From NCBI GenBank assembly GCA_016282855.1, contig JAEELT010000073.1, positions 1 through 55,951 on the forward strand: DNA of 55,951 nt, given 5' to 3'. The position numbers and the translations under genes are program-made. Position 1 is the stretch's first letter. Each line of letters starts with the position of its first letter. This document shows, piece by piece, positions 36,030 through 52,094 of this stretch. This DNA is from Clostridiaceae bacterium. GTDB lineage: Bacteria; Bacillota; Clostridia; Oscillospirales; Acutalibacteraceae. The notes below the pieces were generated by a model that worked only from the letters and a program-made list of their open reading frames with translations, did not search any database and was not told the origin of the DNA.

Positions 36030-36737
36030 TTATTTTGCTTTTTCCGCTTTTTTCTTTGCCCTCATAGCTTTGAAATCATCGAGCCAGAGATCTTTATAAA
36101 TGATGAAAGCCGCAATAAGAGAGGCAATAATGGTTACAAACATAAGCACGCCCACGCCTGTAGCGGGGGAGATGAAAAGCACGAGAACGCCGCAAATAAC
36201 GGGTGTTATGCCGAGCTTCCAGTGCTTTGCAAAGTAGCTTGCGCCAAGTGCTCCGAAAAGTGCGGGAAGCACATTGTTGAACGCAGCCTGGAATGTCGGG
36301 TTGTTGCTTGCCGAATCAAACACCATAGCAAAAGCAAGCACGCCCACAGCAATAACTACGGTTGTAGTTAGTGAGGAAACAGCGATTGAAATAGTGCTGA
36401 TAACTTCGCCCTCTTCGGTGTTTGGATGTACCTTGGCGTTTTCCATTGCGTTGAGGCCGCAGGGGAGCTTGAGGTTTGAAATGTTGCCTGTCACAAACGA
36501 GAGATATGTGCCGCCCGCGCCGAGCATGGGAACATAAGTCACAACCTCAATAATACCGGTTACCCAGTAGAGCGGAGCGAGGGTAGCGATAACCTTGCCC
36601 ATTATTCCGAGGCTCGGCCAGGTGCTCAGCAAAATGCTTGACGCTACAGGCACCATGAGCATCATAAGAAGCGCGGAGTAATTCCAGACGGCGCCCCATA
36701 CATGAACTTTGTCAAAATAGTTTTTGCTTTTGCTCAT
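36030..36737 (-). CDS. Membrane protein, partner of DUF5058 protein
   Basis: 235 aa with about six membrane segments and a basic C-terminal tail (KAMRAKKKAEKAK). Conserved-looking features include YVPMLGAGGTYLSFVTGNISNLKLP in the second-third helix region and LPALFGALGASYFAKHWKLG. It overlaps the upstream DUF5058 gene by 4 nt, so the two probably make one heteromeric membrane complex, likely a transporter or channel. No substrate can be deduced. I do not recognise a characterised family. Confidence 0.65.
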   Translation of the reverse strand: MSKSKNYFDKVHVWGAVWNYSALLMMLMVPVASSILLSTWPSLGIMGKVIATLAPLYWVTGIIEVVTYVPMLGAGGTYLSFVTGNISNLKLPCGLNAMENAKVHPNTEEGEVISTISIAVSSLTTTVVIAVGVLAFAMVFDSASNNPTFQAAFNNVLPALFGALGASYFAKHWKLGITPVICGVLVLFISPATGVGVLMFVTIIASLIAAFIIYKDLWLDDFKAMRAKKKAEKAK

Positions 36738-37597
36738 TTCAGTACACCTCCTATTTCATACCAGGTGAATCCCGCGAGATCCTGAGGCAGTATCTTTGAG
36801 AAGAGAACAGCGCAGCCCATTGCGGCAAACATCGCAAGAGGCATGGCAAATGATTCGAATTTTTCAAGCGCTTTTATCTTTTTGCACAGAAGCATAAGTA
36901 TGAGCATAATAACTATTGCGAATACAAGAGTAAGAATTGAAAGCAGGCCGGCAGATTCTTTTATGACACTCTGCATGATTTTTTCGCCTGCTTCATTAAG
37001 AGCGGGGTTACCGGCTGCGTCAAGCACCGGCTCTTTGACCACGGTGCAGCCGTTGATTGCTCTTGCTATGAAAGCGGATATTATTCCTATAAAAGCTGCT
37101 GCGGCAAGAATATCGCCGAGCTTCTTTGTTTTTTCGTTTTTGCTTACCGCGCCGCCGATTTTGTTCTGCAGCTTTTTGCAGACTATCGGCAGGAAGGTGA
37201 GCGGAAATACCGAGCCTATTGTCATAGCCCAGATTACGGTTGAAAACTGCTTCATATCATCAATTTCCATGCTCAGGGAGCCCCCGAGGTTATTAAGCGC
37301 GGTTTCCGCGGCAACCGTTTCATAGGCAAGGTTTCCTATTACGGTCAGGCGAATCCACGGCAGTATAACTCCGAGTGCTTTGGCAAGCACAAAAACCGTG
37401 ACGAGTATTGAAATCGCGGGAGCAATTGAGAACAGAATACTTGAGGTGATTGTGTTAATCATGGTTTCTTTTTTTATGCCGAGCTCTTTACCGTGTTTCC
37501 AGGATTTTACGATAAAAAAGAGAGACTGGGCAAATATGAAAGCTATAACCCCAAACGCAATCAGATACATTCCTAAGCTTTCTTTGAAATCGGTCAA
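36734..37597 (-). CDS. DUF5058-like multi-pass membrane protein
   Basis: 287 aa with a TTG start 7 nt after GGAGGAGG; no ATG with comparable spacing is available. About seven hydrophobic segments. The N-terminal pattern (KSWKHGKELGI... then FSIAPAISILVTVFVLAKALG and PWIRLTVIGNLAYETVAAETA) matches my memory of DUF5058 proteins, which are uncharacterised permease-like proteins. A polar loop (VVKEPVLDAAGNPALNEAGEK) sits between late helices. It is the first gene of the operon that continues through the second membrane protein, radical SAM enzyme and glycosyltransferase. Confidence 0.65.
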   Translation of the reverse strand: MTDFKESLGMYLIAFGVIAFIFAQSLFFIVKSWKHGKELGIKKETMINTITSSILFSIAPAISILVTVFVLAKALGVILPWIRLTVIGNLAYETVAAETALNNLGGSLSMEIDDMKQFSTVIWAMTIGSVFPLTFLPIVCKKLQNKIGGAVSKNEKTKKLGDILAAAAFIGIISAFIARAINGCTVVKEPVLDAAGNPALNEAGEKIMQSVIKESAGLLSILTLVFAIVIMLILMLLCKKIKALEKFESFAMPLAMFAAMGCAVLFSKILPQDLAGFTWYEIGGVLK

Positions 37598-37673: not shown

Positions 37674-38204
37674 TCAATCGACATAATAAACTCTGCCGTT
37701 TCTGCGCTGCGGCGGTGTGGGGATGTCGCATGCTGCATAACCGATTGCGCAGTGACCGATGCCTTCCCAATCTCCTTCAATGCCCATATCCGCAAGAAGC
37801 TTTTTGTATTGAGGCATCTCAAACTCTTCTTTTGCTCTGTGAATCCATATGCTCCCGAGGCCGAGGGAGTGAGCAGCAAGCATAAGATTGCCCATTACAA
37901 GCGAACCGTCATATATACCGGTGAAGTGATTTTTGTTTGCGAGCACTATGAGAATAACCGGAGCTCCGTAAAACGGGTCAAAGCTTTCATCCTGCCAGCC
38001 GCCGATTTTGCGGTTGTCAGCCGAAAACCGATCACGAAGTTCTTTGTTTTTTACGGCGATAATTATTGTTTCCTGTTTTCCCTTACCGTTTGGGGCGTAC
38101 AGCCCGGCTTCAATGATAGAGTCAATGTCTTTGCTTTCAGGCATTTCGGGCTTGAATTTCCGTATGCTTCTGCGTTCTTTCAGCGCTTTGAGAACTTCGT
38201 TCAT
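37674..38204 (-). CDS. Nitroreductase-family FMN protein
   Basis: 176 aa. The N-terminal family motif is ERRSIRKFKPE (11-21), and the FMN phosphate region APNGKGKQE is at 37-45. The hydrophobic dimer segment GSLVMGNLMLAAHSLGLGSIWIHRAKE and the C-terminal IGHCAIGYAA complete the fold. Members reduce nitro compounds, flavins or quinones with NAD(P)H. It has its own promoter and AAGGAG, and is monocistronic between the purine operon terminator and the DUF5058 operon. Confidence 0.9.
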   Translation of the reverse strand: MNEVLKALKERRSIRKFKPEMPESKDIDSIIEAGLYAPNGKGKQETIIIAVKNKELRDRFSADNRKIGGWQDESFDPFYGAPVILIVLANKNHFTGIYDGSLVMGNLMLAAHSLGLGSIWIHRAKEEFEMPQYKKLLADMGIEGDWEGIGHCAIGYAACDIPTPPQRRNGRVYYVD

Positions 38205-38237
38205 TTTTTTATCTCCTTGGTTGTTTGTTTGCCGATA

Positions 38238-38266
38238 ATTATATCACTTTATAATAAAAAGTGCAA
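38238..38266 (-). promoter_or_regulatory. Promoter of the nitroreductase gene
   Basis: Minus strand: -35 TTGCAC (38261-38266), 17-bp spacer, -10 TATAAT (38238-38243). It begins just downstream of the purine-operon hairpin. Confidence 0.75.
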
Positions 38267-38271
38267 TAAGC

Positions 38272-38305
38272 GAACACCTGCCGACGGCAACTTCGGCAGG
38301 TGTTC
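38272..38305 (-). terminator. Terminator hairpin of the purine operon
   Basis: 13-bp perfect stem GAACACCTGCCGA/TCGGCAGGTGTTC (arms 38293-38305 and 38272-38284), 8-nt loop, 45 nt after the fhs stop. The T-run is not immediate (first TTTTT about 11 nt on), so efficiency is uncertain. Confidence 0.7.
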
Positions 38306-38349: not shown

Positions 38350-40029
38350 TCAGAAGAGTCCGCTGATTTTTCCGTTTTCATCAACGTCAATCTTCTCTGC
38401 CGCGGGCACCTTGGGCAGTCCGGGCATTGTCATAATATCGCCGGTAAGAACTACAACGAAACCTGCGCCTGCAGAAACCTTGACATTCTTGACCGTAACC
38501 GTGAAATCTTCGGGAGCGCCGAGCTTTGTGGGGTCATCGGAGAAACTGTACTGAGTTTTCGCGATACATACGGGCATTTTGTCGCAGCCGAGAGCTGTGA
38601 GCTGTTCAATCTGTTTCTTTGCGCCGGGCATAATCGTTATGCCGCTGCCGCCGTAAACTTTTTTGACAACCGCTTCAATCTTTTCTTCGATTGAAGTGCC
38701 TTCAAGCTCATAGGAGAAGGTGAAATCGCCCTTTTCTTCTTCACACAGGCGTACAACCTCTTTTGCAAGCTCTTCGCCGCCTTTGCCGCCTTCGGCCCAT
38801 ACGGTTGAAAGCACCGTGTTTACACCGAGTTCACGGCATTTGGCGATAATAAAATCTATTTCCGCGTCTGTGTCGGTGGGGAATCTGTTTACCGCCACTA
38901 CGCAAGGAAGTTTGTAAACATTCTTGATGTTGGAAACGTGTCTGAGAAGGTTGGGTATGCCCTTTTCGAGAGCGGCGATATCTTCAGTCGCAAGCTGTTT
39001 CTTGTCGAGACCGCCGTGCATCTTGAGAGCTCTTACGGTGGCAACCACAACGACAGCGTCCGGAGTAAGGCCTGCCATACGGCACTTTATATCGAGGAAT
39101 TTCTCAGCGCCGAGGTCGGCACCGAACCCTGCCTCTGTTACTGTGTAGTCGCCCATTTTAAGAGCAAGCTTTGTAGCCATAACGGAGTTACAGCCGTGAG
39201 CAATGTTTGCAAAGGGTCCGCCGTGTACAAACGCGGGGGTTCCTTCAAGAGTCTGAACAAGGTTGGGCTTGAGCGCGTCCTTGAGCAGAGCTGTCATTGC
39301 GCCTACCGCCTTGAGGTCGCCGGCGGTAACGGGCTTATCATCATATGTATAGCCTACGATTATTCTTGAAAGACGCTCTTTAAGGTCAGTAATTGAGGAG
39401 GCAAGGCAGAATACAGCCATTATTTCGCTCGCAACCGTAATATCAAAGCCGTCCTCTCTCGGAGTGCCGTTGGCTTTACCGCCGAGTCCGTCCGCAATGA
39501 ATCTGAGCTGTCTGTCGTTCATATCAACACAGCGCTTCCAGGTGATTCTGCGAACATCTATTCCGAGACTGTTGCCCTGCTGAATGTGATTGTCAAGCAT
39601 TGCCGCAAGAAGGTTGTTGGCGGCACCGATTGCGTGAAAGTCGCCGGTGAAATGCAGGTTAATATCTTCCATCGGTACAACCTGAGCGTATCCGCCGCCG
39701 GCGGCTCCGCCCTTTACTCCGAAAACGGGACCGAGGGATGGCTCTCTGAGAGCTACGGTAACATCCTTGCCTATGCGTCTGAGGCCGTCGGCAAGACCGA
39801 TTGTGGTGGTGGTTTTTCCTTCGCCTGCGGGAGTGGGAGTAATAGCGGTAACGAGAATTAGCTTGCCGTCCTTCTTATCGGTTTCCCTGATAAGTGCCGG
39901 GTCGATTTTTGCCTTGTAATTGCCGTATTGCTCTATGTACTTTTCGTCAACATGAGCCGTTTTGGCAATTTCGGTTATATGCTTCATTTTACATGCCTGG
40001 GCGATTTCAATGTCGGATAAATAAGCCAT
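38350..40029 (-). CDS. fhs: Formate--tetrahydrofolate ligase
   Basis: 559 aa, full length. It makes 10-formyl-THF from formate, THF and ATP. The P-loop region [20 protein letters not shown] is followed by [23 protein letters not shown], both family hallmarks. It is the last gene of the purine operon, 14 nt after purL, with AGGAG before the ATG. The 10-formyl-THF it makes feeds the PurN and AICAR formyltransferase steps encoded upstream in the same transcript, which also carries a formate-channel-type gene. Confidence 0.97.
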
Positions 40030-40043
40030 TTCAATGCACTCCT

Positions 40044-43000
40044 TTATTTGAAATATTTAACTGCTGCCTTAAACATTCCTATGTCAAAATTGCCGGGAAC
40101 ATTTTTATAAAGTCCGCTGCCTGTGCGTTCACTGTGACCCATCTTGCCGAAGACTCTGCCGTCCGGCGAGGTAATACCTTCAACCGCATATACGGAGTTG
40201 TTGGGGTTGAAATGAACATCATAGGTGGCGTTCCCTTCAAGGTCAACATACTGGGTGGCAATCTGACCGTTGGCGGCAAGCTCTTTCACAAGAGCTTCAT
40301 CTGCTAGGAATCTGCCTTCGCCGTGAGAAATAGGAACTGTGTAAATGTCGCCGGGCTCAGTCAGGGCAAGCCAGGGAGATTTGTTTGATGCAATTCTCGT
40401 GCGTACAAGCTTGCTCTGGTGCCTTGCGATTGTGTTGAATGTAAGTGTGGGGCATTTTTCATCGGTATCGATTATTTTTCCGTAAGGAACGAGACCGAGT
40501 TTAATAAGCGCCTGAAAGCCGTTGCAGATACCGCACATAAGACCGTCTCTGTTGTCAAGAAGGTCTGTAACGGCGTCCTTTATAAGACCGTTGCGGAAGA
40601 AGGCGGTAATGAATTTACCGCTGCCGTCCGGCTCGTCGCCTCCGGAAAATCCTCCGGGAATGAATATTATCTGCGCTTGTTTTGTCGCTTTTGCGAAACG
40701 GTCAATGCTTTCTTTAATACCGTCGGCAGTGAGGTTTCTGATAACAATTATTTCAGGGTCAGCTCCCGAGTCTCTCATTGCTTTTGCGGTGTCAAATTCG
40801 CAGTTTGTGCCGGGAAATGCAGGAATTATAACTTTGGGTGAAGCCGCTTTAATAGCAGGAGAGGGGTAGGAGGATGCTTTGTAAGTGAAATTCTCAATAG
40901 GAGAGTCCTTTGCGGGAATGTTACAGGAGTAAACGCTCTCAAGCTTGTCTTCGTATATTCCGAACAGCTCAGCTTCCGAAACGGATTCGCCTGCAAATGT
41001 AATTTCTTTTCTGTCGGTAACTTTTCCGATTATTGTGCCGTCGGCGCAGGGCTCTGTAACTTCAAGGATAAATGAGCCGTAAGAATAGCCGAAAATATCA
41101 TTTACTGTAAGCTTATCCGAGAAATCAAACCCGAAGCCGTTGCCCATGCACATTTTCATTACGGCTTCAGCGATACCGCCTATACAGGGAGTGTAGCAGG
41201 AAACCGCTTTGCCGCTTCTGAGAAGGGCTGTGACTTTCCTGTAATTCTCGATAAGCGATGAGGTTACGGGAAGCCCGTTTTCATCTTTTTCGGGGGATAT
41301 TAGTATTACATCGTTGCCGGATTTCTTGAATTCGGGTGAAACGACAGACGAAACCTTATCTGTGGTAACCGCGAAAGAAACGAGGGTCGGGGGAACATCA
41401 AGGTTTTCAAATGAGCCGCTCATTGAATCCTTGCCGCCGATTGACGCTATGCCGAGGTCTTCCTGCGCTCTGAAGGCACCGAGCAGCGCCGCAAGGGGTT
41501 TGCCCCAGCGCTTTCCGTCTTTGCCCGGATGCTCAAAGTATTCCTGGAATGTGAGGTAAACATCTTTAAGCTCGGCTCCGGTTGCAATAAGCTTTGAAAC
41601 CGATTCGATAACTGCAAGATAAGCGCCGTGATAAGGGCTTTTTTCTGTGATGAAGGGGTTGTAACCCCAGGACATGAATGAGCAGTCATCGGTGTGCTTT
41701 TTCTCAACGGAAATCTTCTGCACCATTGCCTGAATGGGCGTCAGCTGATATTTTCCTCCGAAGGGCATAAGCACGGTGCCTGCTCCTATGGTTGAGTCAA
41801 ATCTTTCTGAAAGCCCTCTCTTTGAGCAGATATTAAGATCACCGGCGATTTCTTTGAGATTATCGGCAAAGGAGCCGCTTACTGTCTTTTCAACCGGCTG
41901 AGAGGGGGCGGGTGTAATGTCTATATGCTTGTCCGCTCCGTTTGAGTTAAGAAATTCACGGCTGATGTCAACTATTTTTTTGCCGTTCCAGTTCATAGTC
42001 AGCCTGGGCTCGGCTTTTACAACCGCTACCGGGCAGGCCTGAAGATTTTCGGCTTCGGCAAGCTTAAGGAAAGCATCAACATTTTCCTTCTCAACCACAA
42101 CGGCCATTCTTTCCTGCGATTCGCTTATCGCGAGCTCCGTGCCGTCAAGTCCGTCGTATTTCTTCGGCACGGCATTAAGGTCAATTTCAAGACCGTCTGC
42201 AAGCTCTCCTATTGCTACGGACACACCGCCTGCGCCGAAATCGTTGCAGCGCTTTATCATTCGGCAGGCGTCGCCGTTTCTGAACAGACGCTGAAGCTTG
42301 CGCTCCTCGGGAGCGTTACCTTTCTGAACTTCGGCACCGCAGGTCTCTACCGAGTGAGCGGTGTGGGATTTGGAGGAGCCGGTTGCTCCGCCGATTCCGT
42401 CACGGCCGGTGGAACCGCCGAGAAGGATTACTACATCTCCCGGTGCGGGAACTTCTCTGCGTACGTTTTCCGCCGGAGCCGCGGCAATAACCGCGCCTAT
42501 CTCCATTCTTTTTGCTTCATAACCCGGGTGATAGATTTCATCAACTATACCCGTTGCAAGGCCGATCTGATTGCCGTATGAAGAATACCCGGCGGCAGCC
42601 CCTGTGACAATGCTTCTCTGCGAAAGCTTGCCGGGAATTGTTTCGCTCACAGGCTTGAGAGGATCCGACGCGCCGGTAACTCTCATGGCGCCGTAAACAT
42701 AGCTTCTGCCCGAAAGCGGGTCTCTGATTGCTCCGCCTATGCAGGTGGCGGCACCGCCGAAGGGCTCAATCTCTGTGGGATGGTTGTGCGTTTCATTTTT
42801 GAAGAGGAGAAGCCAGGGCTCAGTTACTCCGTCTACATCGACGTCAATTTTAACGGTACAGGCGTTTATTTCCTCGCTCTCGTCAAGCTTTTTCAGCAGG
42901 CCTTTTGCCTTGAGATGCCTTGCCGCTATTGTGGCAAGATCCATAAGACATACAGGCTTTGTTCTGCCGAGCTCTTTTCTTACGCCGATGTATTCATCCC

Positions 43001-43733
43001 AGGTTTTCTGAAGCAGTTTGTCTTCAAATCTGACGGAGTCAATTACCGTAAGGAATGTAGTGTGCCTGCAATGGTCGGACCAGTAGGTGTCTATCATCCT
43101 GATTTCGGTGATTGTCGGGTCTCTGCCTTCTTTCTTGAAATAATTCCGGCAGAATTCAATGTCGTCCGCATCCATCGCAAGACCGTAAGAGCTTACGAAT
43201 TCTTCAAGCCCCTGTCTGTCAAGTGAAGTAAAGCCGTCAAGAGTTGCAACGCTTTCGGGTATTTCATAGTTTACCCTGAGAGTTTCGGGCTTCTCCAGAG
43301 CCGCTTCTCTTGATTCAACGGGGTTTATAACATACTTTTTAATTTTGTTTACATCTTCGGCGCTGATATCGCCGTAGAGTTTGTAAACTTTTGCCGAGCG
43401 GATAATGGGCCTGTCACCCTGTGAAATAATCTGAATACACTGTGCGGCTGAATCCGCTCTCTGATCAAACTGACCCGGCAGGTACTCAACGGCAAATGTT
43501 ACACTGCCGTCATCATCCAATTCCGAGGTTGCTGTGTCAAGCTGTGGCTCCGAAAAGACAGTCTTCACGGCGTAATCAAAGAGTTCTGGGGTGATATTTT
43601 CCGCGTCATATCTGTTAAACAGACGGATGTCTTTGAGATTATCTATACCGAGCAGGGTAACTGCATCGCCGAGCAGGGCTTTTGCTTCATTGGCAAGGCC
43701 TGCTTTCTTTTCAACAAATATTCTGTATACCAT
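40044..43733 (-). CDS. purL: Phosphoribosylformylglycinamidine synthase, single-chain
   Basis: 1229 aa, combining PurS-like, synthetase and glutaminase parts, so no separate purS or purQ is needed. The synthetase domain includes [36 protein letters not shown] and FNDFGAGG-type repeats ([21 protein letters not shown]). The C-terminal class I glutaminase domain has [16 protein letters not shown], the nucleophile elbow [16 protein letters not shown], and a late His region KMGHSER. It converts FGAR to FGAM with glutamine and ATP. Four bases separate it from purD. Confidence 0.97.
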
Positions 43734-43737
43734 AGCC

Positions 43738-45003
43738 TTATCTCCCTGCCTTCAGCGCTCTTGCGCCTATATCTTTGCGGTAAAACGCGTTGCCGAAGGA
43801 AATGCGCTTGACAAGCTCATAAGCTCCCTCAACGGCGCCTTCAAGCGTGGGCGCTGTTTTTACGGCTCCGAGCACTCTGCCGCCTGATGTGACAAGCTTT
43901 CCGTCTTTAACGGCTGCTCCTGCAACATAAACATTATCCGCCGTTTCATCCGGTATGGTTATTTCATATCCTTTTTCATAAGATACCGGATATCCCTGTG
44001 AAGCCATAATCACACAGCAGGCGCTGTCATCTGAAAACTTAACCTCAGTATCGGCAAGGGTGCCGTTTGTGGTGGCTTGCATTATCTCAAACAAGTCGCT
44101 TTCAAGAAGCGGCAGAACAACCTGAGTTTCGGGGTCGCCGAACCGGCAGTTATATTCAATTACCTTAGGACCGTCGGGGGTAATCATAAGGCCGAAATAA
44201 AGGCAGCCCTTGAAGGTCCTTCCCTCGGCGTTCATCGCGTTGACGGTCGGTATAAAGATTTTTTCCATACACTCGCGGGCAATTTCGGGAGTGTAGTAGG
44301 GGTTGGGCGCAACCGTACCCATACCGCCGGTGTTAAGGCCGGTATCTCCGTCCCCGGCTCTTTTATGATCCATGGAAGAAATCATGGGCTTAACGGTTTT
44401 GCCGTCTGTAAATGAGAGCACGGAAACCTCAGGACCTGTCAGGAATTCCTCAATTACTATGTTTTCTCCGCTCTTGCCGAAGGCTTTGTCTTTCATCATT
44501 GATATAACGGCTTTTTTTGCGTCTTCGCGTGTTTCGGCAATTATAACGCCTTTTCCGAGAGCAAGGCCGTCTGCCTTGATAACAGTGGGAATCGGTGCGG
44601 TCTCAAGGTAAGAAAGAGCGGCGTCCATATCGGTGAATACTTCATATTCTGCTGTCGGAATGCCGTATTTTTTCATAAGGTTCTTTGAAAAGACCTTGCT
44701 GCCCTCGATTATTGCCGCTTTTGCCTGAGGACCGAAGCAGGGGATTCCTTCCGCGTTGAGAGCGTCAACGCACCCTAAAACAAGAGGGTCGTCGGGAGCT
44801 ACTACCGCATAATCGATTTTTTCGGCTTTGGCAAACTCCTTAATCTTTTCAATTTCCGTTGCGCCGATAGGGACGCATGTCGCGTCTCTCGCGATTCCTC
44901 CGTTTCCGGGAAGAGCGAATATTTCGGTAATTTCTTTGTTCTCTTTAAGTTTTTTGATGATGGCGTGTTCTCTTCCGCCACCGCCAATTACCATTATTTT
45001 CAT
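43738..45003 (-). CDS. purD: Phosphoribosylamine--glycine ligase
   Basis: 421 aa. An ATP-grasp enzyme forming GAR from phosphoribosylamine, glycine and ATP. N-terminal MKIMVIGGGGREHAI; ATP-grasp core from VIKADGLALGKGVIIA; the catalytic region VIEYNCRFGDPETQVVLPLL near residue 285. It is placed between AICAR formyltransferase and purL in the operon; AGAGG is 6-7 nt before the ATG. Confidence 0.97.
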   Translation of the reverse strand: MKIMVIGGGGREHAIIKKLKENKEITEIFALPGNGGIARDATCVPIGATEIEKIKEFAKAEKIDYAVVAPDDPLVLGCVDALNAEGIPCFGPQAKAAIIEGSKVFSKNLMKKYGIPTAEYEVFTDMDAALSYLETAPIPTVIKADGLALGKGVIIAETREDAKKAVISMMKDKAFGKSGENIVIEEFLTGPEVSVLSFTDGKTVKPMISSMDHKRAGDGDTGLNTGGMGTVAPNPYYTPEIARECMEKIFIPTVNAMNAEGRTFKGCLYFGLMITPDGPKVIEYNCRFGDPETQVVLPLLESDLFEIMQATTNGTLADTEVKFSDDSACCVIMASQGYPVSYEKGYEITIPDETADNVYVAGAAVKDGKLVTSGGRVLGAVKTAPTLEGAVEGAYELVKRISFGNAFYRKDIGARALKAGR

Positions 45004-45018
45004 AGATACCTCTGTATA

Positions 45019-46203
45019 TCAGTGATGGAAAAGTCTCATGCCTGTGAATGCCATTGCCATACCGTATTTGTCGCAGCAGTCAATAACTGCGTCATCGCGG
45101 ATTGAGCCGCCGGGCTCTGCAATATATTTAACACCGCTTCTGTATGCTCTTTCAATGTTATCGCTGAAGGGGAAGAATGCGTCTGAACCGAGAGCAACAT
45201 CGTTCTTTGTGGCAAGATACGCCTTGGCTTCCTCATCTGTAAGGGGCTCGGGCTGAGTGGTGAAATACTTCTGCCAGATTCCGTCCGCGCAGACGTCTTC
45301 CTCATTCTTGTTGATGTAGCCGTCTATTACATTGTCTCTGTCGGGGCGTCCGATATCGGGCTTGAAGGGAAGGTTCAGGACTTTCTCATGCTGGCGAAGG
45401 AACCAGGTGTCTGCTTTTGAACCTGCAAGACGGGTGCAGTGAATCCTGGACTGCTGACCGGCTCCTACGCCGATTGCCTGGCCGTCCACCGCGTAGCAGA
45501 CAGAGTTGGACTGAGTATATTTGAGAGTGATGAGAGATATAATAAGGTCACGCACAGCGCTGTCGGGCAGGTTTTTATTGGCTGTGACAATGTTTGAAAG
45601 AAGGTCTTTGTCAATTCTGAAATTGTTTCTGCCCTGCTCAAATGTGATGCCGAATACCTGCTTGTGCTCTACGGGGTCCGGAACATAGTCGGGATCTATC
45701 TCAACAACATTGTAATTGCCTTTTCTCTTTGATTTGAGTATTTCAAGTGCTTCAGGCTCATAGCCGGGAGCTATTATGCCGTCGGAAACTTCTCTTTTAA
45801 TCATTTTGGCTGTTGTAACATCGCAAACGTCCGAGAGGGCAACCCAATCGCCGAATGAGCACATACGGTCAGTGCCTCTTGCTCTTGCGTAAGCGCAGGC
45901 GAGAGGAGAATCGTCAAGGCCTTCGATATCATCAACGAAGCAGGCCTTCTTGAGGGTGTCCGAAAGGGGAATGCCGACTGCGGCAGATGTGGGGCTGACA
46001 TGCTTGAATGATGTAACTGCCGGAAGTCCGAGAGCTTCCTTGAGCTCCTTGACAAGCTGCCAGGAGTTGAAAGCGTCAAGGAAGTTTATGTATCCGGGTC
46101 TGCCGGAGAGTATTTTGATGGGGAGGTCATCGCCGTTTGCCATAAAGATTTTTGAAGGCTTCTGATTGGGGTTGCAGCCGTATTTAAGTTCAAATTCTTT
46201 CAT
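45019..46203 (-). CDS. Stand-alone AICAR formyltransferase (PurH transformylase domain)
   Basis: 394 aa. It corresponds to the C-terminal AICAR transformylase part of bifunctional PurH; the IMP cyclohydrolase (MGS-like) domain is absent. The active-site Lys-His pair is in TSFKHVSPTSAAVG, with further motifs RHGxN replaced by KYGCNPNQKPSK at the N-terminus and LGSDAFFPFSDNIERA near the end. It uses 10-formyl-THF to convert AICAR (ZMP) to FAICAR. The missing cyclohydrolase is supplied by the PurO-like domain encoded immediately upstream. This enzyme consumes the ligand sensed by the operon's ZTP riboswitch. Confidence 0.93.
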   Translation of the reverse strand: MKEFELKYGCNPNQKPSKIFMANGDDLPIKILSGRPGYINFLDAFNSWQLVKELKEALGLPAVTSFKHVSPTSAAVGIPLSDTLKKACFVDDIEGLDDSPLACAYARARGTDRMCSFGDWVALSDVCDVTTAKMIKREVSDGIIAPGYEPEALEILKSKRKGNYNVVEIDPDYVPDPVEHKQVFGITFEQGRNNFRIDKDLLSNIVTANKNLPDSAVRDLIISLITLKYTQSNSVCYAVDGQAIGVGAGQQSRIHCTRLAGSKADTWFLRQHEKVLNLPFKPDIGRPDRDNVIDGYINKNEEDVCADGIWQKYFTTQPEPLTDEEAKAYLATKNDVALGSDAFFPFSDNIERAYRSGVKYIAEPGGSIRDDAVIDCCDKYGMAMAFTGMRLFHH

Positions 46204-46215
46204 TTTATTATCTCC

Positions 46216-47571
46216 TTAATTGTATTTATTGACGAGTCTGTTTTCTGCCTTGCCTGTTTCTATATCAATGTAGCGAACATAGAGAGAAATCTTGTTGTCC
46301 TCATTGAGCGCGCCCCATAATTTATCGGTAAACTCATCGATATCATCGGGTATTTCCACTCTTTCGGGTTCTCCCTGGAAGGTGGGAATCGGATTGCCGT
46401 CACAGACATAGGTGTGAACAAAATGTCCGAGACCTGAAAGAGGAGCGTATGAGAAGGTGTATCTGTTGCAGGCGGAGCCGTCAGCGTCCGCGCTCTTGAG
46501 AATGCTCATTTCATAGGTGAAATCGCCGTCAAGGTTGAGAATCGCGCTGATTCTCGGGGTGTAATTCGGCTTGTCGGGCTCAAAATCTCTTGTTGCAAGA
46601 GCGCCGGAGAATGTGCCGCCGGCTTTGATGCCTTCATAAATGGTGTCGGTCTGGTCACCGTTGGTCACAATCAGCTTTTTGCAGAGCGAACGGACAGCGG
46701 CGTAAATAATCAGACTCGGGTCTTCAACCTTTGATGCGTCATAAGGTTCTGTGAATACTTCACCGTTTTTCTCGGTGAATATTCTGTTTCTGCTGTTTGA
46801 GCTTCTGCCCATAATGAAGTAGGCGGCTACGGCCTTCTTGCCGTCCTTTGATTTGCCGGCTACAATTCCTCTGCCTACATAGGAATTATCTTTGATGAGC
46901 TCGGCTATGTCGTTGATTTTGTAAATGTCCATTTTCCTTGCCTCCACACTATTATTTTGTTTATTGCCGATTATTTTGCTGCACACTTTTTCTATGGACT
47001 CGGGCAGTATTTGCCATTCCGCCTGTTCCATAACTCTTTTCTGAAGCGTTTCGGGAGTGTCGCCGTCCTGAATATATACGGCTTTCTGCATGATTATTTC
47101 GCCGCCGTCCGGTATTTCATTCACGAAGTGTACCGTGGCGCCCGTAACCTTCACTCCTTTTGCGAGCGCCGCTTCGTGGACTCTGAGCCCGTAAAAGCCT
47201 TCTCCGCAGAAGGATGGGATAAGCGAGGGGTGTACGTTTATGATTTTGCGATCGTAATGCCCGGTGAATTTTTCGCTGAGTATTACCATAAAACCTGCAA
47301 GCACGATTAAGTCGGTGCCGTTTGCGTCTATGGTTTCAATAAGCTTTTGCTCGAACTCATCAGCCGAGGCAAAATCTTTTTTCAGAATTACTTCCGTTCT
47401 AACGCCGGCGTTTGCGGCTCTTGTAAGAGCATAGGCATCGCTTTTGTTTGATATAACCAGCGAAACCTCTCCGCTTTTTATTATTCCGCTTTTCTGAGCT
47501 TCAAGTATCGCCTGAAGATTTGTGCCGCCGCCGGAAACAAGAACGGTGATTTTTGCTTTTTTATCTGCCAT
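46216..47571 (-). CDS. purN: PurN::PurO fusion: GAR formyltransferase joined to archaeal-type IMP cyclohydrolase
   Basis: 451 aa in one uninterrupted frame. Residues 1-200 are PurN: VLVSGGGTNLQAILEA, the catalytic N112/H114 in INVHPSLIPSF, and D155 in NEIPDGGE. A short linker (IGNKQNNSVEARK, 201-213) leads to residues 214-451, which start MDIYKINDI and contain GRGIVAGKSKDGKKAVAAYFIMGRSSNSRNR, typical of PurO-like IMP cyclohydrolase (quoted by its ends: begins GRGIVAG, ends SSNSRNR). Together these give two non-adjacent purine steps. GGAGG (46941-46945) sits 8 nt before the internal ATG at 46932, so a free PurO-like product is also likely. Confidence 0.88.
   Translation of the reverse strand: MADKKAKITVLVSGGGTNLQAILEAQKSGIIKSGEVSLVISNKSDAYALTRAANAGVRTEVILKKDFASADEFEQKLIETIDANGTDLIVLAGFMVILSEKFTGHYDRKIINVHPSLIPSFCGEGFYGLRVHEAALAKGVKVTGATVHFVNEIPDGGEIIMQKAVYIQDGDTPETLQKRVMEQAEWQILPESIEKVCSKIIGNKQNNSVEARKMDIYKINDIAELIKDNSYVGRGIVAGKSKDGKKAVAAYFIMGRSSNSRNRIFTEKNGEVFTEPYDASKVEDPSLIIYAAVRSLCKKLIVTNGDQTDTIYEGIKAGGTFSGALATRDFEPDKPNYTPRISAILNLDGDFTYEMSILKSADADGSACNRYTFSYAPLSGLGHFVHTYVCDGNPIPTFQGEPERVEIPDDIDEFTDKLWGALNEDNKISLYVRYIDIETGKAENRLVNKYN
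46930..46945 (-). promoter_or_regulatory. Internal ribosome-binding site and start for a free PurO-like IMP cyclohydrolase
   Basis: Within the purN::purO frame, GGAGG (46941-46945) lies 8 nt before ATG (46930-46932), which begins MDIYKIND, the natural N-terminus of the cyclohydrolase domain (238 aa to 46216). The linker coding sequence around it looks like former intergenic DNA. Confidence 0.7.
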
Positions 47572-47574
47572 TTT

Positions 47575-48189
47575 TTATTCCTCTTTTTTCTTCTCTTTCA
47601 TACAGAGCGTCATTGCGCAAAGAAGGATTGCGCCTATTGAGTTGCCGAGCACCACTGTCATAAGGAAAGCGAAAGCCCTCAGAGAAACTATGCCGGACGC
47701 CGCAAAGTAAAATATATCCGCAATGGAATGCTCAAAACCGCTCAGTATGAATACGGGAATACAAAACATAATGGCAACGGGTGTTTTATGATCTCTGAAT
47801 ATGCTTACGGCGAGATACATAAGCACACCGCAAAGGCATCCTCTGATAAGAGTCTGTAAAAACTCCTGCCCCAGCTTCGCGTTGCAGATTGTGAGGGCTG
47901 TTTCCTTGATGCCGGGCACGGCATAGGCAACCGCGTAGCCGAGAGCAACAGTGCCTATAGTGTTGCCGAGCAGGCCGAGCAGAAGCACGGAGAATTCTTC
48001 CTTACCGTGCTTTTCGGGAAGATAGCCTACCTTGCCGGTAAACAGCGAATAGCCCTTATAGCAGATACAGAGAAGCGCTACGGTGAAAAATGAGGCTCCC
48101 ACATACTTATTGTCGCAGGCAAGAAAAACGGAGCCGCCTATTGAAATCAGTATGCCTGCGCTGATACCGTTTATAATTTTTTTCAGCAT
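47575..48189 (-). CDS. Short formate/nitrite transporter (FNT) family channel
   Basis: 204 aa, well short of ~280-aa FocA, but with the core FNT elements: N-terminal [20 protein letters not shown] (50-57), [25 protein letters not shown], and the signature [12 protein letters not shown] (151-162) containing the conserved pore histidine H154. About six membrane helices. It overlaps purM by 7 nt inside the purine operon. Placement with fhs and two formyltransferases strongly suggests formate movement for 10-formyl-THF synthesis; nitrite or other monovalent anions cannot be excluded from sequence alone. Confidence 0.85.
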
Positions 48190-49226
48190 ATCGTTATCTT
48201 TTCCTCTGATTTGATTATTTCGCCGATGATATATGCGTCTTCACCGTTTGCCTTGAGTATTTCAATGGCCTTGCCTGAGTCTTCGGGTGAAACGACAATG
48301 CTCATCCCGACTCCCATGTTGTAGGTGTTGAACATATCTCTTTCGCTTATGCCGCCCGTTTTTGCAAGCAGATCGAAAATCGGCAGAATTCTTACTGAGC
48401 TTTTGTCGATTTTTGCTCCGAGACCGTCAGGGATGCTTCTGGGAATGTTTTCATAAAAACCGCCGCCGGTTATGTGCGAAATACCTTTCACTCTTATCTG
48501 CTCAAGCAGCGCAAGCACCGGTTTCACATAAATCTTAGTGGGAGTGAGCAATGTTTCTCCGATGCTTTTTCCGCCGAGCTCGGGGCAGGGGGATTTAATA
48601 TCGGAGTTTTCAACATCAAAGACCTTTCTTACAAGTGAGAAGCCGTTTGAGTGGACTCCGCTTGAGGGAAGGGCAATGATGATGTCGCCCGCATTCATTT
48701 CTTTATTATTTATAATTTTTTCCTTATCAACCACTCCGGTGCAGTAACCGGCGAGGTCGTATTCGTCCTCGGGGTAGAAGCCCGGCATTTCCGCGGTTTC
48801 ACCGCCTATCAGAGCGGCTCCGCTCTGCACGCAGCCGTCACAAACGCCTTTGACTATGTCGGCAATTTTTTCGGGGAAGTTTTTGCCGCAGGCGATGTAA
48901 TCGAGGAAAAACAGAGGCTTTGCTCCGCAGCAGATTATGTCATTTACGCACATTGCCACACAGTCTATTCCGACCGTGTCGTGCTTATCAAGAAGAAAAG
49001 CTATTTTGAGTTTGGTTCCGACACCGTCTGTGCCGCTTACGAGCACGGGCTTTGTTATTCCGGTAAGGTCAAGCTCAAACAGTCCTCCGAAGCCGCCTAC
49101 ATCGGAATATACTCCAGAAGTTACGGTCTTTGCGATATGCTGCTTCATGAGCTCAACCGCTTTGTAACCTGCGGTTATGTCAACTCCCGCGGCAGCGTAG
49201 CTGTCGGACCTTGAATTTGTGTTCAT
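48183..49226 (-). CDS. purM: Phosphoribosylformylglycinamidine cyclo-ligase
   Basis: 347 aa. Converts FGAM to AIR with ATP. Conserved stretches: [19 protein letters not shown] at the N-terminus, [54 protein letters not shown] and [16 protein letters not shown] precedes the ATG, three bases after purF ends. The overlap with the FNT gene implies coupled translation. Confidence 0.97.
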
Positions 49227-49229
49227 ATA

Positions 49230-50651
49230 TTATTCCTTTCCGCTCCAGCAGTATGTGCAAAGCTCGTCTTCATCTATGCCTATTGCTTCGATTATTCCGC
49301 TGAGAGTCTGAAAATCCAGTGAGTCAAAATTCAGTTTTTTACAGATTGTGCTGCGCAGGTTCTTTCCTCTTTCGGTGCTGCCGTCAGCATATTCGTCAAG
49401 ATAATTGAAACCTTCCTCACCCTCAAGCTCCATTATGGTCTGCCTTGATATAAGTTCCATATCGCTGGTGGCGCGTGAGAAGTTGAGGTATTTGCAGCCG
49501 TACATAATCGGGGGACAGGCTGAGCGCATATGAACCGATTTTGCTCCGTTTGAGTAAAGGAAATCAACTGTTTCGCGCAGCTGAGTACCTCTGACTATTG
49601 AATCGTCAACAAACAGCAAATCTTTATCTTTTATAAGATCCACAACAGGCAGAAGCTTCATCTTTGCCACTCTGTTGCGTTCGCTCTGATTCTGGGGCAT
49701 AAAGCTTCTCAGCCAGGTTTGCGTGTATTTGATAAACGGCCTGCCGAAGGGGGTTTCGCTGTTGCTGGCATAGCCGATTGCGTGAGCCGTACCGGAATCG
49801 GGAACTCCCGCCACATAATCAAGGTGACAGTCTATTCCTTTCTCTTTGTCGTTCCTTGACATTATTGCTCCGTTACGCATACGCATAACCTCAACATTGA
49901 CGCCTTCATAAGTGGCGGTCGGATAGCCGTAGTAGGACCAGAGGAAAGCGCATACTCTCTTTTTCTTGCCGGGGGGCGAGAGCTGAGTGATGCCGTCCGC
50001 CGTGATTTCAACAATCTCTCCGGGGCCGAGTTCGCCGCAGAATGAGTAACCGACTTTTTGAAACACAAAGGATTCAAATGATACGCAGTAGCCGTCTTCT
50101 CTCTTTCCCGTAACTATGGGAAGACGACCGACCTTGTCGCGCGCGGCGATAATGCTGCCTCTTTCGGTAAGTATGAGTATGGACGCGGTGCCTTCTATAT
50201 TATCCTGCGCGAATTTAATACCCTCGGTAAAGCTGTCTTTCTGGTTGATGAGAGCGGCAACCAGCTCTGAGCAGTTGGTGCGCCCGCTCGTCATGGCGTT
50301 GAAATTTGCTCCGTTCTCAATACACAGATTGATAAGGGCATCGCTGTTGTTTATCACGCCTATGGTGCTTATGGCATAAGTGCCGAGACGGGATTTTATA
50401 AGCAGAGGCTGAGGGTCTGTGTCACTGATGCAGCCGATTGAGGCAAAGCCTTTCATTTCTTCAAAGACTTTGTCAAACTTTGTGCGGAATGGCGTTTTGT
50501 CAATGCTGTGAATCTGCCTCTGAAGACCTCTTCTCGGGTCGTATGCGGCCATGCCGCCGCTTTTTGTGCCGAGATGTGAGTGATAGTCGGTTCCGAAGAA
50601 AACGTCACCTATGGCGTCATCTCTGTTTACCGCTCCGAAAAATCCTCCCAT
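49230..50651 (-). CDS. purF: Amidophosphoribosyltransferase homologue lacking the nucleophile cysteine
   Basis: 473 aa. The phosphoribosyltransferase half is intact, with PRPP loop VDDSIVRG (348-355). Four cysteines match the Fe-S ligand pattern of B. subtilis PurF: C234, C386, C465 and C468 (CTYC). The glutaminase half is degenerate: the protein begins MGGFFGAV where active enzymes begin (M)CGVFGI, so the N-terminal Cys nucleophile is Gly, and the HRGQD-type motif reads HLGTKSGG (26-33). An in-frame stop just upstream excludes a longer start with Cys. It may use ammonia or a partner glutaminase. I believe similar proteins occur in other Clostridia but could not check. Confidence 0.88.
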   Translation of the reverse strand: MGGFFGAVNRDDAIGDVFFGTDYHSHLGTKSGGMAAYDPRRGLQRQIHSIDKTPFRTKFDKVFEEMKGFASIGCISDTDPQPLLIKSRLGTYAISTIGVINNSDALINLCIENGANFNAMTSGRTNCSELVAALINQKDSFTEGIKFAQDNIEGTASILILTERGSIIAARDKVGRLPIVTGKREDGYCVSFESFVFQKVGYSFCGELGPGEIVEITADGITQLSPPGKKKRVCAFLWSYYGYPTATYEGVNVEVMRMRNGAIMSRNDKEKGIDCHLDYVAGVPDSGTAHAIGYASNSETPFGRPFIKYTQTWLRSFMPQNQSERNRVAKMKLLPVVDLIKDKDLLFVDDSIVRGTQLRETVDFLYSNGAKSVHMRSACPPIMYGCKYLNFSRATSDMELISRQTIMELEGEEGFNYLDEYADGSTERGKNLRSTICKKLNFDSLDFQTLSGIIEAIGIDEDELCTYCWSGKE

Positions 50652-50670
50652 ATATAATCAATCTCCTTAA

Positions 50671-51378
50671 TTATCCGAAAACACGGTGCATCATCTCGTT
50701 GTATGCGCCTTCCACGCCGCCCATATCACGGCGGAACCTGTCTTTGTCAAGCTTTTCGTTGGTCTGAGCGTCCCAGAATCTGCAGGTGTCCGGCGAAATT
50801 TCGTCTGCGAGTACTATTGTGCCGTCAGCTGTTTTGCCGAACTCAAGCTTGAAGTCAACAAGTTTCACATTCAGTTTAAGGAAATAAGCTTTCAGAATTT
50901 CATTGATTTTGAATGCCATGGATTTGATCTGCTCAATTTCTTCCTTGGTTGCGAGCTTGAGAGCTATAGCGTGGTAGGAGTTCATAAGCGGATCATGCAG
51001 GTCATCGTTCTTGTAAGAGAATTCGATTGTGGGCTCGTCAAAAACAATGCCCTCCTCAACGCCGAATCTCTTGGCGAATGAGCCTGCTGAAATGTTGCGG
51101 ATGATAACCTCAAGGGGAACAATGGATACTTTCTTTACTACTGTTTCCCTGTCGTTGAGCTCCTCAACATAGTGGGTGGGTATGCCTTCCTTTTCAAGAA
51201 TCTGCATTAGGAAGTTGGACATGCGGTTGTTTACCACGCCCTTGCCTGCGATGGTGCCTCTTTTGGTGCCGTCAAAAGCGGTAGCATCGTCTTTGTAGGA
51301 TACGATAACATAGTTATCATCCTCGGTTGCGAATACTTTTTTTGCCTTTCCTTCGTAGAGTTGTTTTGCCTTTTCCAT
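50671..51378 (-). CDS. purC: Phosphoribosylaminoimidazole-succinocarboxamide (SAICAR) synthetase
   Basis: 235 aa. Joins CAIR and aspartate using ATP. It starts KAKQLYEGKAKKVFATEDDN, then SYKDDATAFDGTKRG, VPLEVIIRNISAGSFAKR and the late LADEISPDTCRFWD motif, all standard for PurC. AGGAGG is 6 nt before the ATG. Second gene of the operon, with 35 nt after purE. Confidence 0.97.
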   Translation of the reverse strand: MEKAKQLYEGKAKKVFATEDDNYVIVSYKDDATAFDGTKRGTIAGKGVVNNRMSNFLMQILEKEGIPTHYVEELNDRETVVKKVSIVPLEVIIRNISAGSFAKRFGVEEGIVFDEPTIEFSYKNDDLHDPLMNSYHAIALKLATKEEIEQIKSMAFKINEILKAYFLKLNVKLVDFKLEFGKTADGTIVLADEISPDTCRFWDAQTNEKLDKDRFRRDMGGVEGAYNEMMHRVFG

Positions 51379-51413
51379 ATTTTTACCTCCTGTCGGGTTT
51401 ATTGAAGATTTTA

Positions 51414-51908
51414 TCAGCCGCCGAACTGTGCGGATATTTTTTCATCCTTTGCAAGTACCGCTTCGGCATCTGCCCTGCGCTTTGCGTCAAGCTTTGAAGC
51501 GAGGTCGCTGTCTTCCACGGCGATAATCTGAGCGCAAAGTAAAGCGGCGTTGACCCCTCCGTTGACTGCAACCGTTGCCACAGGTATGCCCGATGGCATC
51601 ATTACAGTAGAGAGCAAAGCATCAACGCCGTCCAAAACCGATGATTTGCATGGTATTCCCACTACCGGGAGTGTTGTGTTTGCCGCTATCGCGCCTGCAA
51701 GGTGAGCAGCCATGCCTGCAGCGGCTATAATCGCACCGAAACCTTTTTCGCGTGCGCTCAGCGCGAATTCACGGGCTTGTTCCGGAGTCCTGTGCGCTGA
51801 GTAAACGTGCACCTCGTACGGTATCCCCAGTGAATCGAGTGTGTCCGTCGCTTTCTGTATGACGGGAAGGTCACTGTCGCTCCCCATCACAATTCCGACT
51901 TTTTTCAT
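51414..51908 (-). CDS. purE: N5-carboxyaminoimidazole ribonucleotide mutase PurE
   Basis: 164 aa starting [15 protein letters not shown]. Earlier in-frame ATGs exist at 51950 (inside the riboswitch terminator) and 51914 (one base from GGAGG); the chosen one is 7 nt from GGAGG (51916-51920). Substrate-binding motifs: [15 protein letters not shown], and [22 protein letters not shown]. The AAHL motif points to the class I type that normally works with PurK, but no purK is in this operon. First gene after the ZTP riboswitch. Confidence 0.95.
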
Positions 51909-51930
51909 TGACATGCCTCCTTGAAAATGT

Positions 51931-51968
51931 AAAAGAGCGCATTTGCTCACATAAAAAGCAAAGCGCCC
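51931..51968 (-). terminator. Riboswitch-controlled intrinsic terminator in the purE leader
   Basis: Minus strand: GGGCGCTTTGCT (51968-51957) pairs with AGCAAATGCGCTC (51947-51935), one bulged base, followed by TTTT (51934-51931) and a T-rich tract. The 5' arm starts in the GGGC of the riboswitch's conserved CTGGGC, so ligand-bound aptamer folding and terminator formation are mutually exclusive. Confidence 0.85.
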
Positions 51969-52031
51969 AGACGGTCGGCTGAATTATATACTGTTTCACT
52001 GTGGTGCTCCACAATTATCCGTCAGAAACAG
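51965..52031 (-). ncRNA. ZTP (pfl) riboswitch controlling the purine operon
   Basis: Minus-strand leader of purE. P1 is CTGTTTC (52031-52025) with GAAACAG (51997-51991). Inside it lie the conserved strand CTGACGG and the P2 hairpin TGTGG/CCACA with loop AGCA (52013-52000). The 3' conserved block GCCGACCGTCTGGGC (51979-51965) forms the family pseudoknot: GACGG (52023-52019) pairs with CCGTC (51974-51970). Compared with the common GGCG/CGCC version, this is a compensated G-C to A-U change. The class binds ZMP/ZTP (phosphorylated AICAR) and turns genes on; here it would prevent the terminator at 51931-51968. Confidence 0.85.
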
Positions 52032-52065
52032 CATACCTCTGAATTTTCAACTAACTACTATATGT

Positions 52066-52094
52066 AGTATATCATCAGTGCTTTTTTAAGTCAA
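52066..52094 (-). promoter_or_regulatory. Promoter of the purine operon
   Basis: Minus strand: -35 TTGACT (52089-52094), 17-bp spacer, -10 TATACT (52066-52071), about 35 nt before the riboswitch P1. The inverted repeat ACTAC-ATATA-GTAGT (52054-52068) overlaps the -10 and start region and could be an operator. Confidence 0.85.

Follow-up and report, generated by a model that had tools for sequence, protein, structure and literature searches.

On contig JAEELT010000073.1 of a Clostridiaceae bacterium (55,951 nucleotides, which as a whole we call the window; the source is a metagenome-assembled genome, or MAG, 85.6% complete), a purine biosynthetic operon lies behind a ZMP/ZTP riboswitch and encodes, among the purine enzymes, a membrane channel of the formate/nitrite family (FNT) and the formate--tetrahydrofolate ligase Fhs. 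Comparative analyses indicate that the regulon of this riboswitch has probably taken in formate supply by import, replacing the pyruvate formate-lyase (PFL) of its relatives. The original prediction for this DNA had proposed that low formyl-folate raises ZMP and so increases the uptake and activation of formate together with AICAR formyltransferase. That logic is supported by the comparative tests reported here, because the leader matches the ZTP covariance model, FNT genes occur under ZTP riboswitches in four architectures, PFL is undetected in all 42 genomes with linked FNTs, ZTP riboswitches head PFL in 18 relatives, and the channel combines an FNT fold with a Thr/His pair associated with uptake.

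The leader contains the only Rfam match in the window at the gathering threshold, a match to RF01750 that spans model positions 1-86 with few deletions (Table 1). This search bears out the predicted ZTP-type aptamer and adjusts its extent, given originally as 51960-52035. The pseudoknot arms GACGG and CCGTC are complementary by inspection, and the P1/P2, P3 and J1/2-P3 loop elements of the class are found. The overlapping terminator that had also been predicted is a 13-bp hairpin with one bulge (-17.9 kcal/mol, z -4.3 on folding, equalled by 0 of 200 shuffles), whose 5' arm pairs through the GGGC closing P3 of the aptamer, so that the two structures compete. The arrangement recurs in all 48 leaders folded (the window and 47 relatives), in each of which a hairpin with a T-rich stretch behind it takes up P3; all four bases of the P3 GGGC (GGGU in one leader) are paired in 46 of the 48 and three of the four in the other two. 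This layout is that of transcriptional ON switches of the ZTP class, and the window leader would accordingly be expected to bind ZMP/ZTP, to switch and to raise readthrough. The single promoter of the original prediction fares less well: its hexamers are correctly placed, but the site is weak by itself, as 28 promoter-like sites occur between 36000 and 53500 on both strands against 18.6 expected.

Behind the leader, ten co-directional open reading frames (ORFs) follow in the order purE-purC-purF-purM-FNT-purN/purO-purH-purD-purL-fhs, no gap between them exceeding 35 nt. Pfam and NCBIfam names confirm the predicted ten-gene unit with its FNT, fhs, both formyl-transfer enzymes and a PurO-like cyclohydrolase; the ten ORFs encode eleven functions, purN and the PurO-like sequence sharing one frame. 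Promoter-like sites within the unit could mean that FNT and fhs are expressed mainly from internal promoters, with the leader not in control. The short gaps and the overlap of purM with the FNT gene speak against this, as do terminator-like sites that are not above chance (20 against 22.7 expected) and a ZTP aptamer directly before the FNT gene in three relatives (L090, L100 and L084); we judge internal control very improbable.

A genome survey of FNT genes inside pur operons, as suggested with the original prediction, places the channel among purine genes. Scanning of genome contigs confirmed at least 562 relatives of the window FNT, of which the best 80 were analyzed. Being ranked by likeness to the window FNT, they describe the lineage of the window rather than Clostridia at large, and they are duplicated in part (L102 and L107 are records of one isolate with identical FNTs; L124 and L028 share an FNT). 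Genes were scored as adjacent when on the same strand and at most 400 bp upstream or 700 bp downstream. Among these best 80, 65 FNT loci lie beside purine genes: the FNT adjoins purM, purN or purO in 62 (in the order purM-FNT-purN in 56 of these), guaB only in three, and none of these genes in 15.

The aptamer accompanies this arrangement. A ZTP leader model that we built from four aptamers and ran on 85 loci finds leaders in 47, all on the FNT strand and one of them weak. When purM/purN-linked operons are considered, 44 of the 49 whose head lies in the stretch carry an aptamer, one weak; 11 further operons lack their head. We also assembled a set of 42 linked-FNT genomes, comprising those of 37 of the 80 loci, selected, with PFL not yet looked at, because their FNT is linked to purine genes or ZTP, and five family genomes. 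The Rfam model detects ZTP in 37 of these 42, in 36 above the cut-off. At the gathering threshold it finds no ZTP in L082, L093, L114, L122, L130 and L031. Upstream of purE at 6165 in L093, an aptamer-like leader with a long insert before P3 is visible by eye and is missed by both models; L082, L114 and L122 have purine-FNT operons with no aptamer before purE by model or eye, and are possible losses of the switch.

Four distinct architectures join the aptamer to the channel. The first, ZTP-purECFM-FNT-purN...fhs, is that of the window, L030 and others. The second is ZTP-guaB-FNT-purO-purB-purH-fhs (L029/L182, with guaB and purB named by NCBIfam), and the third is ZTP-FNT-purO-purH-fhs (L100, and L084, which is truncated). 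In the fourth, from L090, the ZTP aptamer (63.4 bits) precedes the FNT gene alone. Straight after the FNT gene a terminator-like hairpin can be seen by eye, and the 20.6 kb covered contain none of the purine genes of the window. A second ZTP aptamer in the L090 genome (63.6 bits) heads purE-purC-purF-purM-purN-purO-purH-purD-purL-fhs, an operon from which FNT is absent. The FNT gene of L090 thus stays under ZTP outside the operon, which its being a mere passenger does not predict. On the FNT tree, purine context requires 8 label changes, a pattern that may reflect one origin with several exits or several entries. Two further candidates were rejected: L038, where the ZTP aptamer has the FNT and an MFS-like gene on its upstream side rather than behind it, and G378 from the class draw, where a ZTP aptamer and a full-length FNT gene 10 kb apart on one contig are separated by opposite-strand ORFs and the aptamer heads glyA. 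In three Parasporobacterium loci (L060, L069 and L095), the FNT gene lies directly before guaB and no ZTP match is found.

The genes under ZTP control in other members of the family suggest what the channel is for. From the window's family 100 genomes were evenly drawn, of which 26 have an FNT match (found with the window FNT as a single-protein query, by which full-length FNTs may be missed), 44 have ZTP, and 53 exceed the PFL cut-off (TIGR01255, 994 bits), with three more counted as split genes (G042, G044 and G061). The other ZTP sites of the family number 52, and we retrieved all but the weak G076:C58. Of these 51, 27 head purine operons and 18 head PFL, three of the latter with pflA first; the remaining sites head fhs (2), guaB-fhs, purO-purH, a FolT-family gene and the FNT unit of G003. 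At one locus (L156, G095:C8 76786-76863) the first large ORF downstream of the aptamer encodes the S component of an ECF transporter of the folate family (TIGR04518, 65.9 bits, cut-off 60). In the available text of PMC2864571, the presence of PFL in the ZTP regulon is explained by its role as formate source for Fhs; FNT fits the same slot, by import.

The two formate suppliers tend to exclude each other. None of the 18 ZTP-PFL genomes has an FNT match, against 15 of the 26 other ZTP-bearing genomes (p 4.6e-5), and PFL is present in 6 of the 26 FNT genomes against 50 of the 74 without a match to the window FNT (p 1.6e-4), kinship being ignored in both comparisons. None of the six purine-linked FNT genomes in the family draw has PFL, and in the linked-FNT set PFL is detected in 0 of 42 genomes, the best score being 188 bits. 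The domain model PF02901 had hinted at PFL in up to 18 of the 42, six of them above 670 bits; as all 42 fall far below the TIGR01255 cut-off, these proteins are taken to be other glycyl-radical enzymes. The molybdopterin oxidoreductase domain PF00384 is likewise found in 0 of the 42; the control search was positive in 11 of 14. Genome G015, of the window's own genus, is a mirror image, with PFL at 1116 bits, neither an FNT nor a ZTP match, and a purine operon that, over the 18.5 kb inspected, has neither FNT nor fhs. Of the 65 rows of a PurM tree, 48 carry FNT alone, 11 PFL alone, five neither and one both, and the labels change 9-10 times. In 21 family genomes (L032-L052) the FNT lies away from the purine genes searched for; these too may import formate, the FNT genomes of the family being poor in PFL.

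The channel itself is the single FNT detected in the window's MAG. Its fold is that of an FNT with broken TM2 and TM5, and it is a short form that does not reach the NCBIfam cut-offs for fnt and FocA (FocA TIGR04060, 53.8 against 290.1 bits). T51, H154 and N183 are invariant, and K105 nearly so, in an alignment of 35 chosen FNTs, and the central pore Thr and His of the window protein align with the LFTG and SGFEHS motifs of HSC. According to the available part of PMC11841067, T91 and H209 of Escherichia coli FocA are required for uptake, and its N-terminal helix docks PflB. Compared with FocA, the window FNT lacks this docking part (its first residue aligns with residue 31 of FocA and the Pfam match begins at profile position 20), scores below the FocA equivalog cut-off, and belongs to a genome in which no PFL is found. 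Formate would be the likely substrate and inward the likely direction.

Two other roles for the channel deserve consideration. The best structural match, in a tie, is to the FNT-family bicarbonate channel LciA, and the operon has no purK; PurE working without PurK uses CO2. The channel could then conduct bicarbonate or CO2 for PurE carboxylation rather than formate. Outside the purE operon, however, the FNT gene goes with purO-purH-fhs or guaB (L029, L100) or stands alone under ZTP (L090), and its exclusion of PFL bears on formate and not on CO2, so that a CO2-related role seems most unlikely. The second alternative is that the channel is an operon passenger that exports an acid: formate made by Fhs running backwards, some other weak acid, or hydrosulfide. 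Some FNTs, such as HSC, do favor hydrosulfide, and FolD, which 41 of the 42 linked-FNT genomes encode, could together with a reversed Fhs release formate. FNTs can also work in both directions (PMC11841067, available part). Against export, loss of formate would be wasteful under a switch that is turned on by a shortage of 10-formyltetrahydrofolate (10-formyl-THF), a passenger is not expected in four ZTP architectures or alone behind ZTP, the pair required for uptake is kept in 35 of 35 chosen FNTs, and PFL goes undetected in the linked-FNT genomes. We consider export unlikely, if somewhat less so than a role in CO2 supply.

Several observations weigh against formate import as the replacement for PFL, or limit its reach. 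Fold comparison does not separate the window FNT from a bicarbonate channel. FolD is present in 41 of the 42 linked-FNT genomes, so 10-formyl-THF can also come from serine; the expectation that FolD might be missing, which would make formate obligatory, is not borne out. The comparison of PFL in 0 of 42 with 50 of 74 genomes (Fisher p 9.8e-15) sets samples drawn differently side by side and ignores kinship, which weakens the statistics, and the PurM tree yields 2-3 independent contrasts on well-supported branches, which leaves a sign test without power. Only 3 of the 52 family ZTP sites examined lead to FNT, some stretches ending early, and 21 of the 26 family FNTs lie elsewhere. Among 245 genomes drawn from the class, with assemblies as they stand, ZTP and FNT are linked in 1 of the 19 genomes having both. 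By these counts the ZTP-FNT linkage is the habit of one lineage. The named FNT loci are almost all MAGs, judging by their titles, and the window's own genome is incomplete.

Under the import reading, a shortage of 10-formyl-THF would stall AICAR formyltransferase, and ZMP/ZTP would rise. Binding would stabilize the aptamer pseudoknot and bar P3 from the terminator, so that RNA polymerase reads on, as established for the class. Readthrough would then raise FNT for formate entry, Fhs for the conversion of formate to 10-formyl-THF, and PurN and PurH for its use, PurH also removing the ZMP signal. The unit would work as a closed loop dependent on outside formate, the channel filling the slot that PFL has in the ZTP regulon of relatives, with formate imported, probably from neighbors, rather than made. 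We give roughly even weight to a broader proposal: that dozens of Clostridia from gut and rumen have lost PFL and use a helix-trimmed FNT as its replacement in the ZTP regulon, tying purines to the formate of neighbors, the switch in effect reporting community formate supply. A transport step under alarmone control offers a testable nutritional link, formate for purines, in uncultured species without detected PFL; it points to a likely substrate and direction for a group of short FNT channels, and suggests formate as a simple culture supplement for isolating such species.

The remaining features of the locus are collected in Table 1. The purE start is most likely the ATG at 51908, preceded by GGAGG by eye. 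In six of six relatives checked purN and purO are separate genes, and in the window they form one frame in which the PurO part begins at residue 214. The old purO start retains GGAGG and ATG behind an in-frame linker, so the window arrangement may be a recent fusion from which purO can still be started. Neither purB nor purK is found in the window's ten-ORF unit; for purK no genome-wide search was made. The hairpin after fhs, which has no immediate U-run, is the probable end of the operon. Past it lies a nitroreductase-like gene (37674-38265, a weak NCBIfam match) with its own promoter-like TTGCAC-17-TATAAT by eye, which suggests a separate unit, and 36030-37597 holds two neighboring membrane-protein-like ORFs of 235 and 287 amino acids.

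Table 1. Features of the ZTP-riboswitch purine operon in the window.
Feature	Position	Strand	Evidence
Promoter-like hexamers TTGACT-17-TATACT, extended -10	52066..52094	minus	consensus scan; chance possible for this site alone
ZMP/ZTP riboswitch aptamer	51958..52039	minus	RF01750, 50.9 bits against gathering 39, E 2.1e-5
Intrinsic terminator	51931..51968	minus	hairpin 51968-51935 and UUUU 51934-51931
purE	51414..51908	minus	PF00731, TIGR01162 (scanned as 51414-51911)
purC	50671..51378	minus	PF01259, TIGR00081
purF, amidophosphoribosyltransferase-like	49230..50651	minus	TIGR01134 166.7 bits, below equivalog cut-off 350; GATase_7
purM	48183..49226	minus	TIGR00878; 3' end overlaps FNT start by 7 nt
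Short FNT channel, 204 aa	47575..48189	minus	PF01226, 92.2 bits against 34.6
purN in frame with PurO-like IMP cyclohydrolase	46216..47571	minus	TIGR00639; PF07826
purH, AICAR formyltransferase alone (short; PRK07106)	45019..46203	minus	NF005492 695.7 bits, cut-off 415
purD	43738..45003	minus	TIGR00877
purL, long form with amidotransferase domain	40044..43733	minus	TIGR01857 1838.9 bits; GATase_5
fhs, formate--tetrahydrofolate ligase	38350..40029	minus	NF010030 930.9 bits; PF01268
13-bp hairpin after fhs	38272..38305	minus	sequence scan

Searches of the open-licence literature gave no report that couples a ZTP riboswitch to a channel or transporter for formate. Each of the elements (riboswitch, enzymes, FNT fold) is already known; that ZTP controls a formate channel, and that this channel and PFL exclude each other, we did not find described. 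The ZTP regulon, in the parts of its description available, shares with the window the aptamer, the overlapping terminator and purine and formyl-folate targets, and lists PFL as a target. FNT is not among the targets in those parts, and in the window the formate-supplying gene is a membrane channel, with no PFL found. In the ZMP riboswitch of Thermosinus carboxydivorans, likewise a transcriptional ON switch, nucleotides of P3 are drawn into the terminator, whose formation the ZMP-stabilized pseudoknot prevents; the conformations and binding of that riboswitch have been measured, whereas the window switch is known from sequence and folding (PMC7337938, available part). In yogurt, Streptococcus thermophilus feeds formate to Lactobacillus bulgaricus for Fhs-dependent purine synthesis. 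As in our model for the window, outside formate there serves as a purine precursor via formyltetrahydrofolate synthetase; the bacteria are different ones, and the available part of that account describes no riboswitch-controlled channel (PMC12996222).

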